A stretch of DNA of 64,000 bases from the NCBI RefSeq assembly GCF_000190315.1, contig NC_015151.1, forward strand, positions 930,001-994,000, in the 5' to 3' direction. How positions within the stretch are numbered: position 1 is the stretch's first letter; every line of letters starts with the position of its first letter. Shown in pieces: positions 3,606-32,031 of this stretch. Position numbers and translations under genes: made by a program. The notes under the pieces are model-generated. The model was not told where the DNA came from and made no database searches. It saw only the letters and a program-made list of their open reading frames with translations. Source of the DNA: Vulcanisaeta moutnovskia 768-28 (GTDB lineage: Archaea; Thermoproteota; Thermoprotei; Thermoproteales; Thermocladiaceae).

Positions 3606-4397
3606 ATGGATTTAGGCCTAAGGAATAAGGTTGCTCTAATAACTGCGTCAAGCCGCGGTATTGGACTTGGAATAGCCAGGGTGCTTGCCCAGGAGGGTGC
3701 TAGGGTCATTATTAGTGCTAGACGTGAGGATGAGCTTGCTAGGGCTAGGGATGCCATAATTAAGGAGAGTGGTACTGAGGTGTTGGCGGTCAGGGCTGAT
3801 TTAACCGTTAAGGATGATGTGGATAGGCTTGTTAGGGAGGCTATGAATGCTTTCGGTAATATTGACATCCTGGTTTTTAACGCGGGACCACCCAAGCCAG
3901 GTACATTCTCCCAATTGAGTGATGATGATTGGGATTACGCAACCAAGCTATTACTCCTCAGCGCCGTATGGCTTACCAAGCGTGTTATTAATAGCATGGT
4001 CAATAGGAATTGGGGGAGGCTAATCTACGTAACGTCACTAACCCTTAGGCAGCCAATACCAAACCTTGTTCTTTCAAACACAGTCAGACTTAGCCTAGCG
4101 GGTCTTGTTAAGTCGCTGGCTATTGAGTATGGGTCTCATGGTATAACGACTAATGGCATAATGCAGGGCTACATAATGACAGAGAGAATAGATCAATTGG
4201 CTCAGGAGGAGGCAAGGGCAAGGAGCATTAGTGTTGATGATGTTATTAAGTCATGGAGCAAGGAAATACCGGTGGGTAGGTATGGAAAGCCCGAGGAAAT
4301 AGGCTATTTAGTGGCTTTCCTAGCCAGTGATAAGGCTGCTTATATAAATGGTTCGATGATACTAATTGATGGTGGTTACGTAAGGTGTGTATTTTAA
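3606..4397 (+). CDS. Atypical short-chain dehydrogenase/reductase lacking the YxxxK pair
   Basis: The protein has a classical SDR Rossmann fold: nucleotide loop TASSRGIG near the N-terminus, RREDE after beta-2, NAGPP after beta-4, VTSL in beta-5 and the C-terminal VAFLASDKAAYINGSMILIDGG. The catalytic YxxxK is replaced by SNTVR (Ser and Arg). A whole SDR subfamily annotated as 3-oxoacyl-ACP-reductase-like carries SNxxR, so this is probably not decay, but the usual Tyr-Lys hydride-transfer chemistry cannot apply. I chose the ATG at 3606 (MDLGLRNK) because a TATA-like box sits about 26 bases upstream; a TTG at 3594 is possible. Substrate unknown. Confidence 0.8.
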   Translation: MDLGLRNKVALITASSRGIGLGIARVLAQEGARVIISARREDELARARDAIIKESGTEVLAVRADLTVKDDVDRLVREAMNAFGNIDILVFNAGPPKPGTFSQLSDDDWDYATKLLLLSAVWLTKRVINSMVNRNWGRLIYVTSLTLRQPIPNLVLSNTVRLSLAGLVKSLAIEYGSHGITTNGIMQGYIMTERIDQLAQEEARARSISVDDVIKSWSKEIPVGRYGKPEEIGYLVAFLASDKAAYINGSMILIDGGYVRCVF

Positions 4398-4430
4398 TAC
4401 CAAGGACTTATTAAGTTTAATATGAAAGTC

Positions 4431-5246
4431 CTAATAAAACACTGGTAATTCCTCCTTCGGCGGCTTCATATATTCCTCCAGGTTTTTGTCTATTAGGAAT
4501 GCGTACTTATCAGCATGCTCGGCCAATTTATCGGTGGGTATCTCAAAACCAATGATCTTACTCAGGGCTTTTATTAATTTGAGAGCTGCGGTTACATCGG
4601 GTCCATACGTACCAATTGTTTGATTGAGTATTGACAATACATCCTTATGACTCGATAACTTACCACTCTCAATCAACCTATTGATTGCGGTTAATACCTT
4701 TGATTCAGCGAGTAATAAGACACCGTTTATGTTCCTGGATAGTACAGAGTCTAGGAACACAGCCTCAATACCCGTTATTGTCGCTTCACGAAGTGGTATC
4801 AAGCCTAACTGCCTATATTCGTCTACATGTCCCTCCTCACTTACAAAGTAAATATTATCAGTCTCCTGTTCACTAAGGAGTGATGTTGATGTTAGGCACA
4901 CAACCCTACCTACGGCATTATCCTCGGCCCAATCCAGGATCTTATCAATAAACTGCCTATAGAGCGTTGGTGGGATTGGCACATGCTGCCTAATTACCAC
5001 AATTGCGTGCTCTCTATCAAAAAAGAGCCTATAGGGTAGCTTCGCCGCGCCGTCAATTACTGTGACAATGGGTACGTGGACCCTCGGCTTTATTGAACCA
5101 ATCTCCTCCATCTTAAGTGTCTCCACGAGATACTCAATGGCCACTATGGAAGCCAGCGATGGCTCAGGACATGCCATTATGAGTGTGTTACGTGGATCTC
5201 GTGGAATTGACTTAATCTTGATATCGAATACCGTGGTTGAGGACAT
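4431..5246 (-). CDS. PAC2 family protein (proteasome-assembly-chaperone-like)
   Basis: This 271-residue protein has the PAC2/COG1938 layout: an opening TLIMACPEPSLASIVAIEYLVE segment, a central beta strand ending VVCLTSTSLL, then GIEAVFLDSVLS, GVLLLAES and a helical C-terminal domain ending in a Pro-rich tail. PAC2 proteins in archaea are related to the eukaryotic proteasome-assembly chaperone Pac2; their partner in crenarchaea is not well defined. It is a single-gene unit on the minus strand with the ATG at 5246. Confidence 0.7.
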   Translation of the reverse strand: MSSTTVFDIKIKSIPRDPRNTLIMACPEPSLASIVAIEYLVETLKMEEIGSIKPRVHVPIVTVIDGAAKLPYRLFFDREHAIVVIRQHVPIPPTLYRQFIDKILDWAEDNAVGRVVCLTSTSLLSEQETDNIYFVSEEGHVDEYRQLGLIPLREATITGIEAVFLDSVLSRNINGVLLLAESKVLTAINRLIESGKLSSHKDVLSILNQTIGTYGPDVTAALKLIKALSKIIGFEIPTDKLAEHADKYAFLIDKNLEEYMKPPKEELPVFY

Positions 5247-5279
5247 ACCATGACTTAATCAATGCTTGATTTAAATACT

Positions 5280-5387
5280 TTATGTAAGTAATGCTGGATC
5301 AATGGGCACCCTGTCAATCTTGACCTTACTGCCCCTCCTCCTTAGTATGTCCTCCACGGCGTTGGTCACCGCAGCCGCGGCCACACC
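5280..5387 (-). pseudogene. C-terminal fragment of the split molybdenum hydroxylase large subunit
   Basis: The minus strand reads GVAAAAVTNAVEDILRRRG, then VPIDPALLT and stop. This is the typical last helix and tail (xxAVxNAVEDA...xxxPxTPxxL) of CoxL/xanthine-dehydrogenase molybdopterin subunits. It is in the same frame as the truncated gene at 7557-9548 and exactly supplies its missing end. The two pieces are separated by the PaREP2b insertion. The hexamer CACACC occurs at 5382-5387 and again at 7551-7556. Confidence 0.75.
5382..5387. repeat. Putative target-site duplication CACACC (left copy)
   Basis: CACACC at 5382-5387 lies between the coxL tail fragment and the tRNA-Lys 3' fragment. The same hexamer at 7551-7556 lies beside the end of the main coxL fragment. 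Fusing the fragments through one copy approximately restores the family motif around the catalytic glutamate, apart from two one-base indels. Confidence 0.45.
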
Positions 5388-5388
5388 T

Positions 5389-5438
5389 ACGGGCTTTTAA
5401 CCCGTAGGACCCGGGTTCAAGTCCCGGCGGGCCCACCA
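5389..5438 (+). tRNA. 3' half of tRNA-Lys(TTT), from anticodon stem to CCA
   Basis: Starting at ACGGG, the sequence has a 7-base loop CTTTTAA (anticodon TTT), the matching CCCGT strand, a 5-base variable region, a T-arm with a perfect CCGGG/CCCGG stem around TTCAAGT, the acceptor 3' strand CGGGCCC, the A discriminator and an encoded CCA. No acceptor 5' strand or D-arm lies upstream, where coxL coding sequence begins. It is therefore a half gene: an attachment-site-like fragment carried by the inserted element, or less likely the 3' half of a split, trans-spliced tRNA of the kind known in Caldivirga. Confidence 0.75.
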
Positions 5439-5497
5439 TCCTTCGTGTTTTTCTTTGTAATTTAAGTAAGGAAAGAGAAAAAGGGAGGAGGTTTTGT

Positions 5498-5519
5498 TGG
5501 CCCGTGGGTTTGGGTGGGG
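5498..5519 (-). repeat. Conserved PaREP2b 3' flank, copy 1
   Basis: On the minus strand just after the PaREP2b stop the sequence reads CCCCACCCAAACCCACGGGC. Nearly the same string follows or overlaps the ends of the PaREP2b copies at 28909-28930 and 25198-25231. It marks a shared 3' boundary of the repeat family. Confidence 0.55.
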
Positions 5520-6989
5520 CTAGGCGTTGTCGAAGCACTTTAGTTTTTGTACGGCCTTGGCTATCTTTTTCTTCCTCCTTTCGTTACTTGTCTCATTGAG
5601 CCACTCACCCAGTTTTCGGCAAACCGGCTCCCTGAGTTCTGGCTTATCACGAATTTTCGAATGCAATATCGCAACCTCGTAGTACCTTCTAGCTACACGC
5701 AATGATGTTTCATAACCAGCTTTTTTCAATTCCTCAACCAACCTCAAAGTCTCGATTTCATCCTTCCTCCTTGCCCTAAGCTCGACCTTGCAATCACCCC
5801 TTACAATAATAGTCATGCTTATGTTCGTTCCAGGAATCATGATTGATTTATTACCCGACTCCTTAACCTCCATGTTCGCCAACTCAATTATTCGCCTCAG
5901 CTTCTCTCCGCCAAGGCTTGCGCCAAGCTCGATGAGCTCCCTGATGTCGGGTATTGCCAACCAATCCCTAACCAGCTTGACGGCCTTGCTCCAATTAACC
6001 TTAACCTCGACCTTGTAATCCCTCACTTTTATCGTGAAGCCCAACTCATTAACCAATCTCTCGATTATGCCAAGCCACAGCTCATATTTGGCAAGGCCCA
6101 CCACGAGCTTTAAATACCTCTCACCAACATTAATATAGCCATCACCCCAAACAGCAGGTGCCAAGAACATACTAAGTCTCTCGGTACTGAGCTTCCTGAC
6201 CTCCTCAGCCACCTCCTCCTTCGGCTTTGTCTCATGGTCATTGGCGATTAAACGCCACGTGATTGAAGCGGCATCCCCATTTATATTTATACCGCTTATG
6301 TACATGTGGATTCTGCCTGGGTAACACAGCGGCCACAGGACGGCTTGCCATGGCTGGCTCGTGACCATACTCGGATGTCCATGTTCGACCGATCCATCCG
6401 TCATCTCCCAGCCGTGTTGGATAGCCTTGAGAGCTTCCTCATCACTGAATGTGTTGGCTACCATGACGTCATCCCCCTCGAGCTCAGACAGCGTTAGATT
6501 TATCGTGATGCCCCTGCCCTTAGCGACCTTATTCACCTCAATAGCCACGCCCTTGTTGTACAAGTGTATCATGAGTGATTTATTGCCGTTATTCTCGCCG
6601 GTCACGATTATGTCTATTGCGCTTTTCTCGAGCAAATCCATGAGCTCCATAAACTGCCTCCAATAAATTTCGACCCACTTCTTTCTGAGTTCCTTGAGCA
6701 ACCCAATCATCTTCCTAACGACCTTCCTCGCCTCCCTCACCTTCCTACCCCTATCGCCCTTATGCTCCCCAAGCCACCTCTCCAACAAATCAATAAGCTC
6801 ATCAATGAATGCGACATTCTCGAGCTTGCTCTTGTGCCTCTCAACCCTTTCCTTCAACTCACTGATTAGCTCCTTAACCTCCTTGATCACAGTCTCATCA
6901 GTCACTGGCTCACCACAGACAAGTCTCCTGCCACGCCTAACACCCCAACAAATCCTTAACTTCTCGACATTAACCTGAGCAGAGGACAT
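5520..6989 (-). CDS. PaREP2b family protein, copy 1 (two LAGLIDADG-like motifs)
   Basis: This 489-residue protein opens with LRICWGVRRGRRLVCGE, the signature start shared with the copies at 18.7 and 28.9 kb. A helical region (about 30-120) and an IIVTGENN strand follow. Two motifs resemble LAGLIDADG helices: HGWEMTDGSV near residue 192 and APAVWGDGYI near residue 276, the second followed by a beta strand and YELWLGIIERL as in homing endonucleases. The ancestral function is inferred to be DNA cleavage; both motifs are less canonical here than in the 28.9-kb copy. The gene sits inside the coxL-like gene with its 3' end facing the tRNA-Lys fragment. Confidence 0.75.
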   Translation of the reverse strand: MSSAQVNVEKLRICWGVRRGRRLVCGEPVTDETVIKEVKELISELKERVERHKSKLENVAFIDELIDLLERWLGEHKGDRGRKVREARKVVRKMIGLLKELRKKWVEIYWRQFMELMDLLEKSAIDIIVTGENNGNKSLMIHLYNKGVAIEVNKVAKGRGITINLTLSELEGDDVMVANTFSDEEALKAIQHGWEMTDGSVEHGHPSMVTSQPWQAVLWPLCYPGRIHMYISGININGDAASITWRLIANDHETKPKEEVAEEVRKLSTERLSMFLAPAVWGDGYINVGERYLKLVVGLAKYELWLGIIERLVNELGFTIKVRDYKVEVKVNWSKAVKLVRDWLAIPDIRELIELGASLGGEKLRRIIELANMEVKESGNKSIMIPGTNISMTIIVRGDCKVELRARRKDEIETLRLVEELKKAGYETSLRVARRYYEVAILHSKIRDKPELREPVCRKLGEWLNETSNERRKKKIAKAVQKLKCFDNA

Positions 6990-7550
6990 TAAACAACCAA
7001 ATGCATGAACTCTTTAAAAACCTTCCCATTTTACCAGAAAAAGTTAAATATAGTTCAGCGAAAGTTTTGGTTCGCTCACCGGTTTTGATTGAACCACGTC
7101 GGAATCATGGGCAGTGGCGTGAGGGTGATCATGCACGTCTTGACAAGTCATTGTTCCATGGAAATTATCGATGTAATGCTCAGTTTGTGGCAGTCGTTGG
7201 TTATGGCAAATTAACTAACCAACGCTTTATACACTACGTACTGCAGACGTCGAGACCTGCAGAAGGTGGATCCTAGGGCTCGTCAATAATTACGGCAAAC
7301 AAATATGCGGCAACGCTGAACCAATCGAAGCATAGCACTAAAGCACACCACCAGCAGTGAGCACAATCAAGAATTGCCCGAACAACTCCAACAAAACCAT
7401 AGGCACCACCCAAACAACCCACACATCAAACCTAAATATTCACCAGCAAGCACATACAGAAACTGCGCGAACAAAGTTCTACAAAACCTAGGCAATGCAT
7501 AATCACCCCCAAGGTAGAGTATTAGGTGCACCACACCCCATGATAATACA
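6990..7550. other. Gene-free end of the PaREP2b insertion
   Basis: There is no convincing gene in these 560 bases. The first part (7001-7080) is A+T rich and may hold the PaREP2b promoter. The rest has short open frames on both strands, none with recognisable homology. No terminal inverted repeat matching the left end was seen. Confidence 0.4.
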
Positions 7551-7556
7551 CACACC
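7551..7556. repeat. Putative target-site duplication CACACC (right copy)
   Basis: This matches 5382-5387 and lies directly against the premature TGA of the main coxL-like fragment. Confidence 0.45.
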
Positions 7557-9548
7557 TCACCAATAATCCTTAACGCCCATTGGCGTCATTGGTGATGGTG
7601 ATGGAACTATGTGAACCTCTATTTCCGGTATGTCCATGACTGTTGGTAATCCATAATCACCAAGGCTTAATGTTAATAGATTACCATCTTCATCATATCT
7701 ATACGCCTCATAGAGCGCCAGTGAAATACCTATGGCAGTACCACCTATTATCTGTTCTTTAACGAGCTCCTCATCAATAACATTACCCGGATCTAGGTAA
7801 ACCACGTGCTTAATTGGCTTAAACCTACCATCCTCATACCTAACGACAGCAATATCACAGGCAAATGGATAGGCAATGAACCTACCAATCTTCGCCTCTG
7901 CTGTATATGTGAATGTAACCTCCTCATTACCGAGCTCAAGGATGCTGATTCTCTTGCCATCGCTTGAACGGAAGTAACCCTTTTCATACGTAATGTTACC
8001 ACCAAGTACATTAGCAGCCTTATTGTATAGTCTAGTTTTCAACTCCTCAACCGCACCAAGCACAGCGCCTGCTGTGAAGACCGCCATACGACTACCACCT
8101 GGTCCAAAGGCTTCTGGACTTTCATCACTTGGCAAGTACTCGTAGGTAACCCAATCCATTGGTACATCAAGGAGTTGAGATACGAGTTTAACCGCGGTAT
8201 GTTCATTACCCTGTCCTTCACCACCAAATCCAAGTCCCACTATTATCTTCCCATTCTTAATACTTAACTTGATACCCTCGGTGCCTTGTGGTGTTGAGGG
8301 ATCTGTCGATACTGCGATACCAACGCCGGTACTCTCATCCATTAGTGAGAATATGTCGTTACGGGATAGAGCAAGTTCAAGGAGTCCCCTTGGATTTCCT
8401 GAGTCGTAGTATGCGTAGGGTGCTTCGTATGGGAATGAATCAATTAAGTTCCTCCTTCTTACCTCTGCCTTATCAATTCCAAGTTCATCTGCTATGGCAT
8501 CCATAACCCTCTCCAGAGCCCAGGTATGTGGCGGCGTACCAGCGCCTCTGAATGCGCCTGCTGGATTCTTGTTCGTTGCAACAACCGTGGCGTTATATCT
8601 TAGGTTCCTAATCTTGTAAGGTCCAGCCAATATACCAAGCGGCTTAAAGGCTTGCCCACTCCCTCTACTGGCTCCAGCATCTTCCCAAATACTTATGTCC
8701 AACCCCTTAACCACACCATCCCCATCGAAGTAAGCCTTAATCCTGAACCTCCTCTCAGGACCACTTGAATTAGATGCCATTAAGTGCTCCGTCCTAGTCT
8801 CAATCCACTTAATCGGTGTCTTGAACTTATAGGCTGCGTATGCCAGGATTATTAAGTATCTAATGAGGGAGAACTTAGATCCAAAGCTACCTCCGTGCCT
8901 AACTGGTATGTGCTTAATCGGTATTCCAAGTGACCTCTCTATCTCAGTAACTATTGCCCTACCGCCTTGTATGTTAGATATTATCGTGACACCACTACCC
9001 TCCGGATATGTTATGGCTGCGAAGGTCTCTATGGGGTTTCCCGAACTCCTTGACCAATAGAGACTAAGCTCTATCTCCCTTGGTCCGTTGGGCATTTGCC
9101 CGTATTCAATTACCTGTGATTGAACAATATTAGTACCCAATTCCTCAAAGACCAATGAATCATTCTTGAGCGCATCGTCTATATTACGTACAGACTTCAA
9201 TGGTTCATACTGTATGTCGACGAGTTCGGCGAGGTCCATGGCCCTATACACATCATCAGCAATAACCAGCGCCACCGGCTCTCCCTGATAACGGGCTTTA
9301 TCTACGGCCAGTGGTAATGTCTCAAGACCTGCACCCTCTCTCTCCGTTAGGCCTATGGTTCTAGCCATGAAATCCCTGCCTGTAAGTACCAGCGCCCCCT
9401 CATTGATTGCTTTAGATGCATCTATACTTAATATTCTAGCGTGTGGATATGGACTTCTAACGAACACTCCATACTTGCCTCTGTGTGGATGATCATCCAG
9501 GAATCCACCTTTCCCAAGCAAGGCGTTGAGTACGTCAATCCTCGGCAT
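7557..9548 (-). pseudogene. Molybdenum hydroxylase large subunit (CoxL/aldehyde oxidoreductase type), interrupted
   Basis: These 663 residues match most of the molybdopterin-binding subunit of the xanthine dehydrogenase/CO dehydrogenase family: PYPHARI near the N-terminus, the GGSFGSK cofactor loop, GAFRGAG, GFGGEGQG and GPGGSRM. The frame ends MTPMGVKDYW, just where the family has GVKGxGEGG with the catalytic glutamate. Shifting frame by one base after the Lys gives an Ile-Gly-Glu segment, so the active-site codon survives in the DNA but out of frame. The rest of the C-terminus is at 5280-5387, beyond the PaREP2b insertion. No small Fe-S or FAD subunit gene is adjacent. The product is probably inactive. 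Confidence 0.8.
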
Positions 9549-18694: not shown

Positions 18695-20230
18695 ATGGCT
18701 CTTAATGGTTTGAGGATTTGCTGGGGTGTGAAGGTTAGGGGTAAGAAGCGATTAGAATGTGGTGAGACCGTCAATAACCCAGAGATAGTTAGTGAGGTGA
18801 TGAAACTAATCAATGAGTTCTTAAACCGAATCGAGAAGCATAAAAACGTATTACTAAGCAGTGAGACTACGCCATTTGATTTTGCTATCAATGCCGTAAG
18901 TAATTGGTCGTCTAAGGCAATCGTGATTGCTAAGAGTGATGAAATAATTATGGAACTTGAGCTGACAGAGCATAATGTCGGTAGGACAATGATCGAGTTA
19001 CTGAGTCAAGCTAGGGAGAGGTGGCTGGAAATACATAGGCTGGAACTGGAGGAGTTAATTAGGAAGTTGAGAGGTAATGAGATTTCAATAATCATAACTG
19101 GAGAGCCATTTAATAGCAATAAGTCGTTTATAGTGCATTTATATACGATACATTTAGCAATTGAGATAGAGAGGGTGGCTGGGGCTAAGGGGGCAACGAT
19201 ACGCATGTCGCTAACGGGATTTAAGGGTACTCATATTATAACGCCGAAGCTTCTTGATGATGAAAAGCTAAGGGCTATGCAATACGGCTTATTACTAACA
19301 GATGGGTCTATCCATGAGGGTGGTTATCCGATAATGAGCACAAGTCAACTTTGGCAAGCTGTCACCTTCACACTTGTGTTTCCAGGTAAGGTCTATGCAG
19401 GCATAATAGGTTTAAGTCTCAATGAGGATGACGTGGGAATTATTTGGCGTCTAAGGGCTGTTGATTATAGGGGTATGTTTAAGAGGAAGGCTGAGGTTGC
19501 TGAGCGAGTCCTAGAGCTTGGTGATGAGGATTTCATGGGCTTCCTGCTCCTCGCGGTATTGTGTGATGGTGATGTAGATGTTGGGAAGAGGATGATTAGG
19601 CTTACCATGGGTGGGTCGAAGCGTGGGTTGTGGGGTGAGGTCATTGAGAGGTTGGTGGGTTATGGATTTAGGGAGGGTGATGGTGGGCGTAGGAAGGCGT
19701 ATAGGGTTTGGGAGTCGAAGGCTATTGCCGTTGCTCGTAAAATGCTGGGTGACTCGGTGATTAGGTCTATAATAGAGAACCTAAGTGAGTTGCCTGATGC
19801 TGAGAAGCTTAGGCGGTTGATTGGGTTGGCTGATATGGAGGTTAGGTCTTTGGGTCGTTCAATGGTTGAGGTGGTTGATGGTGTTTGGATGAGTATTAAT
19901 GTGTACAGTAGTGGTACTATCCAGCTTAGGGTTGTGCGTAGAGACTACGAGGGTGCGAGGAAAATTTGGGAGAGGTTACGAGGGGTAGGTTATGACGCCA
20001 GGTTGAGGAGGTATGGTGAGGTCTTTGTGGTTCGCATAAACATGGGCGAGGTCAAGAGGCATCCAGAGCTTGCTGCCAAGGTATGCGGATTACTGAGGGG
20101 AATGCACGAGGAAGTATTGGGTGAGGGAAATACAAGGAGAGTTCAGAGTATAGCTAAGGTGATGGAGAAACTAAGCTGTCAAATAATGTCCCGGTCAGAA
20201 TTCGAACACATAAGATGGGGTTCCTGTTGA
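18695..20230 (+). CDS. PaREP2b family protein, copy 2
   Basis: This 511-residue protein starts MALNGLRICWGVKVRGKKRLECGE, matching the other copies. It keeps the first LAGLIDADG-like motif (AMQYGLLLTDGSI), while the second is altered (LLAVLCDGDVDV). A C-terminal helical segment (LSELPDAEKLRRLI) and an alpha/beta tail follow. After LSC the C-terminus diverges from the other copies because the gene runs into a tRNA-like relic at 20188-20272. DNA endonuclease ancestry is my inference. It lies between tRNA-Ser and ATPase subunit K. Confidence 0.75.
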   Translation: MALNGLRICWGVKVRGKKRLECGETVNNPEIVSEVMKLINEFLNRIEKHKNVLLSSETTPFDFAINAVSNWSSKAIVIAKSDEIIMELELTEHNVGRTMIELLSQARERWLEIHRLELEELIRKLRGNEISIIITGEPFNSNKSFIVHLYTIHLAIEIERVAGAKGATIRMSLTGFKGTHIITPKLLDDEKLRAMQYGLLLTDGSIHEGGYPIMSTSQLWQAVTFTLVFPGKVYAGIIGLSLNEDDVGIIWRLRAVDYRGMFKRKAEVAERVLELGDEDFMGFLLLAVLCDGDVDVGKRMIRLTMGGSKRGLWGEVIERLVGYGFREGDGGRRKAYRVWESKAIAVARKMLGDSVIRSIIENLSELPDAEKLRRLIGLADMEVRSLGRSMVEVVDGVWMSINVYSSGTIQLRVVRRDYEGARKIWERLRGVGYDARLRRYGEVFVVRINMGEVKRHPELAAKVCGLLRGMHEEVLGEGNTRRVQSIAKVMEKLSCQIMSRSEFEHIRWGSC

Positions 20231-24502: not shown

Positions 24503-25198
24503 TTGGCATGCTCCATCAACCACTCCCCGGAGGCTGTCTCGGCGTTTCCGTATATGGGTATCCCAATGGGCCTAATTGATTCCACCGGCCTTACTTATTA
24601 CGCGGTTTTAGGCGATGGTAACATTGATGCTGAGAGAAGGGTGATTGAGCTCAACATTGGTAGCGAGAAATATGAGCTACGGAGCGAGATTATCAATAGA
24701 ATAATGAGGCATGACCTTAAGGAGCATGATTTAAAGACTGCAAAGGCTGTCGACATAGACAAGAGGCGGCTCGGCGATTCGATAATTAGGGCCTTGATTG
24801 ATTATTTGAATTAACTATCAGATGCTAGGAAATTAAGGCACCTAATAACGCTGATAAACGTAGAGATCAAGCCGAGAGGTGACTCTTCGGTTGATGCCGT
24901 GAATGGCATGAGGATGTGTATTAACGTGAGGCGAAACGGCAATGTGAAACTCATGGTCAGGCGTAAGAACTTCGAGAATGCCAGGAATATTTAGGAGACG
25001 CTTCGAGTCGCAGGCTACAACGCTAATTTAAGTAAGCGAGATAGCCAATTCGTGATCTACATAAGCCAAGATGAAAATACGAGACATCCAGAGCTTATCA
25101 TTAAGGTATGCGAAGTACTTATGAGGTTGCACGAGGAGACAGTGAGTGAGGACAGCATCGAAAGAGCATGGAGAATAGCTAAGGTAATGAAAAACTGA
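24503..25198 (+). pseudogene. PaREP2b remnant, copy 3 (C-terminal half, two nonsense codons)
   Basis: One continuous plus-strand frame encodes the C-terminal half of PaREP2b: AVLGDGNID with ELNIGSEKYEL (second LAGLIDADG-like motif), LSDARKLRHLITL, GNVKLMVRRKNFENA, RHPELIIKVCEVLMRLHEET and AWRIAKVMKN. It is interrupted in frame by TAA at 24812-24814 and a TAG near 24992. The N-terminal half is missing. Its 3' end lies 58 bases from the 3' end of the CAT-anticodon tRNA, in convergent orientation. Confidence 0.8.
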
Positions 25199-25231
25199 AT
25201 TGTAGAGACTCCGCCAAAAGCCCACGGGCTC
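25198..25231 (+). repeat. Conserved PaREP2b 3' flank, copy 2
   Basis: After the remnant stop the sequence reads TTGTAGAGACTCCGCC then AAAAGCCCACGGGC, closely matching the 3' ends of PaREP2b at 28909-28930 and 5498-5519. In frame it encodes an equivalent of the NCRNPT tail of the 28.9-kb copy, showing that the upstream TGA is also a decay mutation. Confidence 0.5.
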
Positions 25232-25256
25232 AAAACAAAGCACAAAAAATCATAAC

Positions 25257-25355
25257 TGGTGGGCCCGCCGGGATTCGAACCCGGGACCTCCCGGTTATGA
25301 GCCATACGCGGGGCAACACGCCCCAGGGCGCTCTACCTGGCTAAGCTACGGGCCC
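25257..25355 (-). tRNA. tRNA with CAT anticodon (Ile2 or elongator Met), intron-containing
   Basis: The minus strand gives acceptor GGGCCCG/CGGGCCC, D-arm GCTTAGCCAGGTAGAGC, loop CTCATAA (anticodon CAT at 25297-25299), 3' anticodon strand CCGGG, T-arm CCGGG-TTCGAAT-CCCGG, A discriminator and encoded CCA. The 5' anticodon strand CCC-GG is interrupted by a 22-base intron (25304-25325), at about position 29/30, a non-canonical site known in Thermoproteales. It lacks initiator features (A1 and the GGG/CCC anticodon pairs). The G1-C72 acceptor and near identity to the Lys-type body suggest tRNA-Ile2, but identity needs isotype scoring. Confidence 0.85.
25304..25325 (-). other. tRNA intron in the anticodon stem
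   Basis: The 22-base insert starts TGGGGCGTG on the minus strand and contains GGGGC and GCCCC, which pair and would present a bulge-helix-bulge to the splicing endonuclease. Removing it restores a five-pair CCCGG/CCGGG stem. Confidence 0.7.
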
Positions 25356-28930: not shown

Positions 28931-30537
28931 TTTCTACAGTTTAATCTCATTATTGCCTTAGCTACTTTCCAAGCCTTCACAGCGTTATTCTCATTTATCG
29001 TCTCCTCATGTATCCTTCTTAACGTCTCACAAACCTTAGCAATTAATTCTGGGTGTTTTTTAATTTCGTCGATATCTATGCATACTTCAAAACTTTTGCC
29101 GTTCTTCCTTAACTTAGCTTTGTAACCCGCGCTATTAAGTCTCTCCTGAATTGCTCTAGCATCCTCATAATTTTTACGAAGTATCCTAATTTCAATATAG
29201 CCCTCATCTCTTACATGAATGCTCATCTTTATATTATCGATCTCAATTGACAAACTGCCCCTTGGCTTAATCTTTATATTAGTCAACGCTATTAAGCGTC
29301 TTAGCTTTTCAGCATCTGGTAAAATGCTTAAGCTCTCGATCATTGCTTTAATCGTTGAGCTACTAAGCATTTTCCTGGTTAACTCTATGGCCTTATAAGT
29401 CCAAATTATGTACGTCTTTTTATTTCTGCTGTCATATTCCTTAAAGCCATAGCTCTTTATTTTCTTGATAATATCAACCCATAGCTCATACTTCGAAACG
29501 CCAATGTCAAGCTTAATCATTTTATTCTTAATATCAAAGTGACCATCACCAAGTAACGCGAAGAGCAAGAATATTAAGAATTCATCATTATTAAGCTTAA
29601 GAACTAACTTCACAACCTCATCCTTATTTTTTATCTTGTCTCTATGGCTTATTGCCCTTAAATGCCACTTTATGCTTATGTTATTATTAATATTTATGCC
29701 ATTTATGTATATGTGAACTATTCCAGACCACACAAGTATCCAAGCGATAACTTGCCATAATTGGTTAGTGTTCATCGCTGGGTAACCTTTAACAATACTT
29801 CCATCCGTTAATAACAAGCCGTATCTCATTGCTTCTAATATATTATCGCTGAATAGCTTTGGCATAACTACGTCAATACCTCCTAAGTCACTCAACGATA
29901 TTTCTATCGTTATGTTGTCTGGTGATTTAGCGATCCTCTCTATCTCAATCGCTAAGTATCTCGTGTATAAGTGCGCTATAAAGGACCTACTCTCGTTAAA
30001 CGGATCTCCCGTTATGATTATTACTGCTTCACCCTTTCTTAGTTTTTCAATCAACTCCTCTAGTTCAGATCTATATATCTTAAACCACTTCTCTCTTGCT
30101 TCTTCGGCAAGCTTTAGCATATTTTTGCCTACCTCGTGCTCAACAGCCTTAAGCTCCATAATGACAGTATCAACCTCAACAACCACGACTTTTAACCAAT
30201 CACTCAAGGCACTGATGGCATAACTAAATGGTGTAATCTCGTCGCTTAACAACACACTTCTATATCTCTCAACTCTCCTAATAAACTCACTTATTAGCTT
30301 CGCTACCTCATTAACTATTCTCGGATCGCTAACTTCCTCACCGCACTTTAACCTTTGCGAGTCCTTTACCTCCATACCCCAGCATATCCTTGGTTTGGCT
30401 GGGCCCCACTCCGCCTGGGCGTAGCCCCCGACACCCCCAGCAGTGCCGGGGGCTGTTGAGGATGGGTTGTTTTTAACCTCACCCACCCCTGGGGAGGCGG
30501 GGTCATCGGAGACTTTACCTCGAGTTTTCCACCCCAT
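28921..30537 (-). CDS. PaREP2b family protein, copy 4 (best preserved motifs)
   Basis: This 538-residue protein contains PRICWGMEV...QRLKCGE at about residues 49-68, as in the other copies. The two LAGLIDADG-like motifs are the clearest of the set: AMRYGLLLTDGSI and LLFALLGDGHFDI, the second followed by KLDIGVSKYELWVDIIKKI. The first 48 residues (Gly/Pro rich) have no counterpart elsewhere and begin inside the left arm of the 27-nt inverted repeat, so a GTG start within this stretch (GVGEVKNN) is possible. It may be an active endonuclease-like protein; it marks the left side of the secretion element. Confidence 0.75.
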   Translation of the reverse strand: MGWKTRGKVSDDPASPGVGEVKNNPSSTAPGTAGGVGGYAQAEWGPAKPRICWGMEVKDSQRLKCGEEVSDPRIVNEVAKLISEFIRRVERYRSVLLSDEITPFSYAISALSDWLKVVVVEVDTVIMELKAVEHEVGKNMLKLAEEAREKWFKIYRSELEELIEKLRKGEAVIIITGDPFNESRSFIAHLYTRYLAIEIERIAKSPDNITIEISLSDLGGIDVVMPKLFSDNILEAMRYGLLLTDGSIVKGYPAMNTNQLWQVIAWILVWSGIVHIYINGININNNISIKWHLRAISHRDKIKNKDEVVKLVLKLNNDEFLIFLLFALLGDGHFDIKNKMIKLDIGVSKYELWVDIIKKIKSYGFKEYDSRNKKTYIIWTYKAIELTRKMLSSSTIKAMIESLSILPDAEKLRRLIALTNIKIKPRGSLSIEIDNIKMSIHVRDEGYIEIRILRKNYEDARAIQERLNSAGYKAKLRKNGKSFEVCIDIDEIKKHPELIAKVCETLRRIHEETINENNAVKAWKVAKAIMRLNCRNPT

Positions 30538-31931: not shown

Positions 31932-31956
31932 CGCCAAACCCCCTATGCCCACCCAC

Positions 31957-32031
31957 GGGCCAGCATTGGATCACCCACCGAGCATCCGCCCCGGCTATAC
32001 CGGGGTGGTTTGCTCAGGGGCTCATTACTCC
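31957..32031 (-). promoter_or_regulatory. Structured 5'-leader RNA element, copy 1
   Basis: On the minus strand, ATGAGCCCCTGAGC opens an outer stem (GAGC/GCTC) enclosing an inner hairpin CCCCGG-TATAG-CCGGGG; GGTGGGTGAT and a CAATG...GGCC tail follow. Copy 2 at 34533-34606 has the same order with compensatory changes (GAGG/CCTT outer stem). A TATA-like element about 25 bases upstream would place the transcript start at the edge of the structure. Confidence 0.55.
32002..32017 (-). repeat. 16-nt repeat within leader copy 1
   Basis: CTGAGCAAACCACCCC (minus strand) recurs exactly at 32220-32235, suggesting a partial third leader copy or a duplicated segment. Confidence 0.45.

Follow-up and report, generated by a model that had tools for sequence, protein, structure and literature searches.

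How a tRNA fragment and a gene resembling the PaREP2b repeat family came to lie inside a coxL gene of Vulcanisaeta moutnovskia 768-28, and what kind of protein the inserted gene encodes, are the questions raised by the locus described here. The locus lies within a 64,000-nucleotide stretch of the genome, termed the window (C1:930001-994000 of G000, a complete genome of 2,298,983 bp), and positions refer to the window unless a contig or locus is given. The genes of the window and its nearest relatives are of the Vulcanisaeta type. The initial annotation took the insert to be a PaREP2b element that moves as a discrete unit with a short target duplication and can carry a tRNA 3' end. The reading favored here, to which we give a probability of roughly 60%, is that a proliferating free-standing LAGLIDADG endonuclease gene entered coxL via break repair.

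Empty Sites and Junctions of the coxL Insertion

Comparison with orthologs identifies the coxL C-terminal tail (AAAAVTNAVEDI..., 5280-5394, minus strand, stop codon at 5280-5282) and the coxL body (7554-9548, minus strand, shortened open reading frame (ORF) 7557-9548 with Ald_Xan_dh_C, MoCoBD_1, and MoCoBD_2 domains) as two pieces of a single gene. The orthologs run unbroken across the insertion point in at least eight congeneric genomes (G001, G002, G003, G004, G007, G008, G010, and G011) and, more distantly, in G033 from the same order, one example reading ...GGTGTTAAGGGGATTGGTGAGGTGCCCGTGGGTGTGGCCGCGGCTGCGG..., and the target region in an intact congener lies around GGTGAGGTGCCCGTGGGTGTGGCC. 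The empty-site comparison proposed in the initial annotation thus bears out its view that an insertion has split coxL. The tail has 83-90% DNA identity with the intact coxL of seven congeners, and every match stops at 5394. In the window the left piece stops at ...CCACACCTACGGGC, and coxL picks up again with ACCTCACCAAT at 7554, placing the insert at 5395-7553 with the right junction at 7553/7554; the target keeps all its bases, of which no more than one (C) occurs on both sides.

The sequence CACACC occurs at both junctions (5382-5387 and 7551-7556) as had been noted, but it is not the target duplication it was taken for. The left copy is native to coxL, where the orthologs read CACACC or CACGCC, and the right copy is a chance product of the join between CAC and ACC. 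The empty-site orthologs show no target site duplication of the type associated with DNA transposons. A +1 frameshift ahead of the junction is real (GATTATTGG compared with GGGATTGG). It is also present in G005 (86% protein identity), where the right junction is identical to that of the window, and the G005 contig stops within the sequence upstream of the inserted gene (90% identity over 80 bases). The insertion is therefore older than the split between G000 and G005 and is no assembly error of one genome.

The Inserted Gene and Its Predicted Fold

The inserted gene (5520-6989, minus strand) has an intact reading frame and encodes a two-motif LAGLIDADG-type protein of 489 amino acids, which has no match above cut-off in Pfam or NCBIfam. 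The alignment of 32 relatives contains two motifs, (Y)G(L/W)xxTDGS and (F)LLxAxLGDG, in which Asp-198 is invariant and Asp-283 nearly so, both being invariant in the core set. These residues supply the acidic side chain that closes each motif helix in LAGLIDADG proteins. The AlphaFold model (pLDDT 90.6) predicts an α-β-β-α-β-β-α unit present twice, as in the LAGLIDADG fold, and every leading match among Protein Data Bank (PDB) structures is to a LAGLIDADG protein (TliVMA intein nuclease, 4.8e-5; WhiA, 1.2e-4; E-DreI, 1.6e-4), with further matches to I-DmoI and I-Tsp061I. In a viral library, most matches are to homing endonucleases or to proteins with inteins. When restricted to the central 178 residues, the profile has a sole match among PDB sequences, the archaeal homing endonuclease I-Tsp061I (PDB code 2dch, E 0.003) from a Thermoproteus relative, and the profile of the whole protein matches mainly coiled-coil and helical-bundle proteins through its N-terminal helices. 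Among 151 sampled genomes of the phylum, members of the family occur only in this order and in one other genome of the same class. The inserted gene appears to belong to a multi-copy Thermoproteales family encoding free-standing LAGLIDADG-type endonucleases, an assignment that draws on the predicted model.

The Pfam PaRep2b model (PF07775) matches neither the inserted gene nor any sequence in G000, G007, and G010. Profile-profile alignment with hhalign gives 96.8% (E 2.3e-10) over residues 269-457 only, and by this measure Pfam PaRep2b proteins, taken from a genome resembling Pyrobaculum, are distant relatives of the protein inserted in coxL. The model of a Pfam PaRep2b protein has low confidence (pLDDT 68.8) and LAGLIDADG proteins as its top fold matches, a likeness that is suggestive only. 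PaREP2b sequences have been called putative transposons (PMC3558965). In a text search of the literature, which does not extend to subscription journals, this is the one paper that names PaREP2b, and none ties PaREP2b to LAGLIDADG.

A Conserved Motif at the Gene 3' End and Its Near-Copy in coxL

Immediately past the gene lies the 3' motif CCCCACCCAAACCCACGGGCC (5498-5520, minus strand) with its core CCCACGGGC at 5500-5508. The exact core, inside the longer consensus CCCCRCCCAARGCCCACGGGC, is found at the gene 3' end in 13 of the 21 copies examined; it is missing from the 948k copy, from two truncated ORFs, and from distant relatives. Its location ranges from 113 nucleotides inside the ORF to 11 nucleotides past the stop codon with varying reading frames, and this speaks for a signal at the DNA or RNA level, not for a protein motif. 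G000 has 11 CCCACGGGCC sites, seven of them located at these gene ends and oriented alike, and G011, which has no copies, contains eight unrelated CCCACGGGCC sites. One CCCACGGGCC site in the window (31952-31961) has no gene end adjoining. An inverted motif is present near the gene start in four copies (e.g. GCCCGTGGGCCCTGGGC...GGGCCCACGGGC), and the window copy has none.

Right at the breakpoint, coxL of G001 and G004 reads GCCCGTGGGTGTGG, one mismatch away from the motif in reverse complement (GCCCGTGGGTTTGG), and in most congeners the target differs from the 14-mer motif by 1-2 mismatches. Outside the PaREP copies, 129 kb of own sequence contains three sites with ≤2 mismatches, namely the coxL junction and two others. 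The inserted gene is free-standing, lying in neither an intron nor an intein, and breaks coxL at a near-copy of the family 3' motif.

The coxL gene has also been struck elsewhere. In G007 and G010 a different copy, 34% identical, stands in place of coxL residues 1-389 so that the gene is cut at residue 390 (L146 of G007, 4586-6941; L147 of G010, 3899-6254), and a deletion came with it. This copy is an independent hit on coxL. Were the window insert a random fragment, a tRNA end with a passive PaREP2b-like gene ligated into a spontaneous break in a dying coxL, the microhomology on one side only (see below) and the shortened coxL of G007 and G010 would both fit. That account leaves unexplained why the same family hit coxL twice, why the breakpoint coincides with a sequence so close to the 3' motif, and why no target bases were lost, and it is regarded as improbable. 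In G011, where the coxL neighborhood differs, a tRNA-Lys(CTT) gene (L083, 1335-1411) precedes the start of coxL by ~90 bp.

The tRNA Part

The tRNA 3' part (5390-5438, plus strand, 49 nucleotides) comprises the anticodon TTT, the T-arm, the acceptor 3' strand, and CCA, and the 5' half is absent. It matches the Rfam tRNA model (RF00005) with 28.8 bits (E 0.008), slightly below the 29-bit cut-off. The part was thought to start exactly at the anticodon stem. The CGGGC at 5390-5394 belongs to coxL and the tRNA alike, as similarity to coxL extends up to 5394 in seven genomes and similarity to tRNA begins at 5390, so the seemingly exact start is due to coxL bases that happen to fit, and the apparent 8-bp stem is partly coxL sequence. 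Its label as tRNA-Lys(TTT) holds for the anticodon but not for the T-arm, which is unlike that of native tRNA-Lys; 40 of the 49 positions are identical to native tRNA-Lys(TTT) and 42 of 49 to native tRNA-Asn. At 40/49 identity a copy of the native tRNA-Lys is ruled out. The closest full tRNAs are tRNA-Lys(TTT) of Desulfurococcales and Sulfolobales (46/49). The exact source was not found in the genome_contigs or viral_contigs collections, and a degenerate-pattern search returned 52 contigs carrying genes of the tRNA-Lys(TTT) type, chiefly from Desulfurococcales and Sulfolobales, and no exact match.

Thermoproteales possess split and multi-intron tRNAs, and the tRNA part folds well, which might suggest a functional split tRNA gene, trans-spliced, of which the part would be the 3' half. 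The genome nevertheless has an intact tRNA-Lys(TTT) gene, coxL lies directly upstream of the part, and among 44 tRNA matches no separate 5' half was found, the one other partial match having a D-arm; a split tRNA gene is accordingly a most improbable explanation.

Archaeal integrases use tRNA 3' halves from the anticodon loop onward, and the insert could be viewed as the remnant of an integrative element with a tRNA-Lys 3' half as its attachment site and coxL as a secondary integration site. The T-arm that differs from native tRNA-Lys and an orphan tRNA 3' half of a similar sort at a tRNA-Asn locus of G004 would agree with this. The insert shares with the tRNA-integrated elements of the SSV/pNOB8 type a tRNA 3' half at one end. 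Unlike them, it has no integrase ORF and no core repeat at the far end; strand exchange leaves the core at both ends, and the right junction lacks the core ACGGGC in G000 and G005 alike, which makes an integrative element an unlikely origin. The orphan half in G004 (C20 ~23.1 kb, minus strand, L167/L275) runs from the anticodon stem on (GGGCTTTTAACCCG...), lies 472 bases from the contig end, and looks like a displaced tRNA half left behind by an integrated element. The native tRNA-Asn gene of L002 (C1:273264) has in its 3' flank GTTTTGTTTTGGCCCGTGG, which resembles the 3' end of the unit in reverse and is possibly a solo remnant.

Other Copies and Their Variable Borders

The tRNA 3' part, trailer, and gene are contiguous and in the same order in a second copy at ~C1:140915-142372 (the 140.9k copy), in agreement with the earlier suggestion that a PaREP2b-like unit can carry a tRNA 3' end. 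In the window the T-rich tRNA trailer and spacer common to both copies occupies 5439-5493. Ahead of the 140.9k copy is a degenerate tRNA of full length that most resembles tRNA-Asn/Lys, followed by the same trailer ATCCTTCGTGTTTTTCTTTGTAATTT. The copy is situated within an insert of ~2.7 kb that carries an additional ORF. Its empty site is seen in G007, G010, G002, G003, and G011 as a gap of roughly 20-60 bp between a radical-SAM gene and tRNA-Arg(TCG). The simplest reading is that the donor had the gene facing a tRNA 3' end and that variable lengths of the tRNA were carried along, or the association may have arisen by independent insertion beside two tRNA ends.

The stretch of the window common to each close copy is 5460-7090 for the 1863k copy, 5390-7070 for the 140.9k copy, and 5499-6956 plus an upstream block for the 1951k copy. 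This block (7361-7525) is found elsewhere only in G005 and beside the 1951k copy, and an upstream region at 6990-7090, on the promoter side of the mobile unit, is kept among the close copies. The borders differ from copy to copy; the ends of the inserted unit are not fixed, and the view that it moves as a discrete element finds no support. A small ORF (MDRGVYVLVSDESKAVRIRYACGDEV...) in L081 of G005 (67-333) diverges from the gene and has matches near the G008 copies; a decayed version may be present at 7100-7360 of the window.

These observations bear on the interpretation of PaREP2b as a transposon, a self-contained unit bounded by terminal repeats and flanked by a short target duplication. 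The copies are indeed multiple, scattered, and frequently broken, four have the inverted counterpart of the 3' motif near the gene start, and the published label is that of putative transposons. Set against this are the missing target duplication at coxL, the lack of an inverted 5' motif in the window copy, the varying borders, and a predicted fold that is LAGLIDADG and not that of a known transposase, leaving the transposon with a small share of the probability.

A tRNA gene lies ≤1 kb from 7 of the 17 copies in G000, 3 of 17 in G007, and 1 of 12 in G010, a total of 11 compared with 2.4 expected under uniform placement, a null that ignores gene density. Orientations are mixed, solo motifs downstream of tRNA genes show no clear excess, and tRNA adjacency as a general rule is a lead only. 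The window has a second tRNA-facing copy at 24602-25355, where a gene remnant (plus strand) is followed by CCCACGGGC at 25221 and a tRNA 3' end (minus strand) at 25257. Two more intact relatives (~40% identity) occupy 18704-20179 (plus strand), 304 bp from tRNA-Ser, and 28933-30405 (minus strand).

Proposed Mechanism

In the favored reading, the protein would cut DNA, and a cut in coxL would have fallen right beside GCCCGTGGGTGTGG, the near-copy of the family 3' motif, which would itself belong to the recognition site. The freed end ...ACGGGC could then have primed on the CGGGC of the tRNA anticodon stem adjoining a donor copy, and repair synthesis would have carried copies of the tRNA 3' part, its trailer, and the endonuclease gene into the broken coxL, inactivating it before G000 and G005 separated. 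The family would spread through break and repair, a mode that would result in variable borders and no target duplication.

Several points weigh against this reading. The match between coxL and the motif was spotted after the fact at a single insertion, the final left junction is at the tRNA CGGGC and not at the motif, and the coxL junction in G007 and G010 has no motif-like target. The left junction lies outside the G005 assembly. By sequence alone the LAGLIDADG assignment is weak, with Pfam hits under cut-off, and the whole-chain TM-scores are low since the structural match spans only the central ~200 residues.

A wider proposal is held as a tentative minority view. PaREP2b and its relatives may be self-spreading LAGLIDADG endonuclease genes with the CCCACGGGC end as a recognition half-site, proliferating by cutting look-alike sites in genes and beside tRNA genes of Thermoproteales chromosomes and dragging tRNA pieces along.

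Comparison with Known Systems

The archaeal rRNA-intron LAGLIDADG endonucleases I-Tsp061I and I-DmoI resemble the inserted protein in fold, in the two-motif single chain, and in the motif aspartates. In contrast to these, the inserted gene is outside any intron or intein, has additional N-terminal helical and C-terminal domains, exists in many copies per genome, and destroys the protein gene it enters. PaREP2b of Pyrobaculum (PF07775) shares distant homology over the second half, the GDG motif, and LAGLIDADG proteins as top fold matches of a low-confidence model, whereas its family model fails on the inserted gene. In phages, the free-standing homing endonuclease genes of intronless homing are located beside an intron rather than inside it and spread via break repair. 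The likeness is in the endonuclease gene outside an intron and its spread by repair; the differences are that the phage systems involve other nuclease classes, and that here archaeal chromosomes, a conserved terminal motif, and tRNA hitch-hiking are concerned.

The analysis offers a candidate function class for a large repeat family that has been credited with genome rearrangement in Pyrobaculum and whose function is undescribed in the literature searched. It also provides a dated insertion with its empty site and names a short DNA motif as a candidate cleavage site. If the proposed reading is true, endonuclease genes would be multiplying in chromosomes with neither intron nor intein, and there would be a route for scattering tRNA fragments in Thermoproteales, an order with unusually fragmented tRNA genes.

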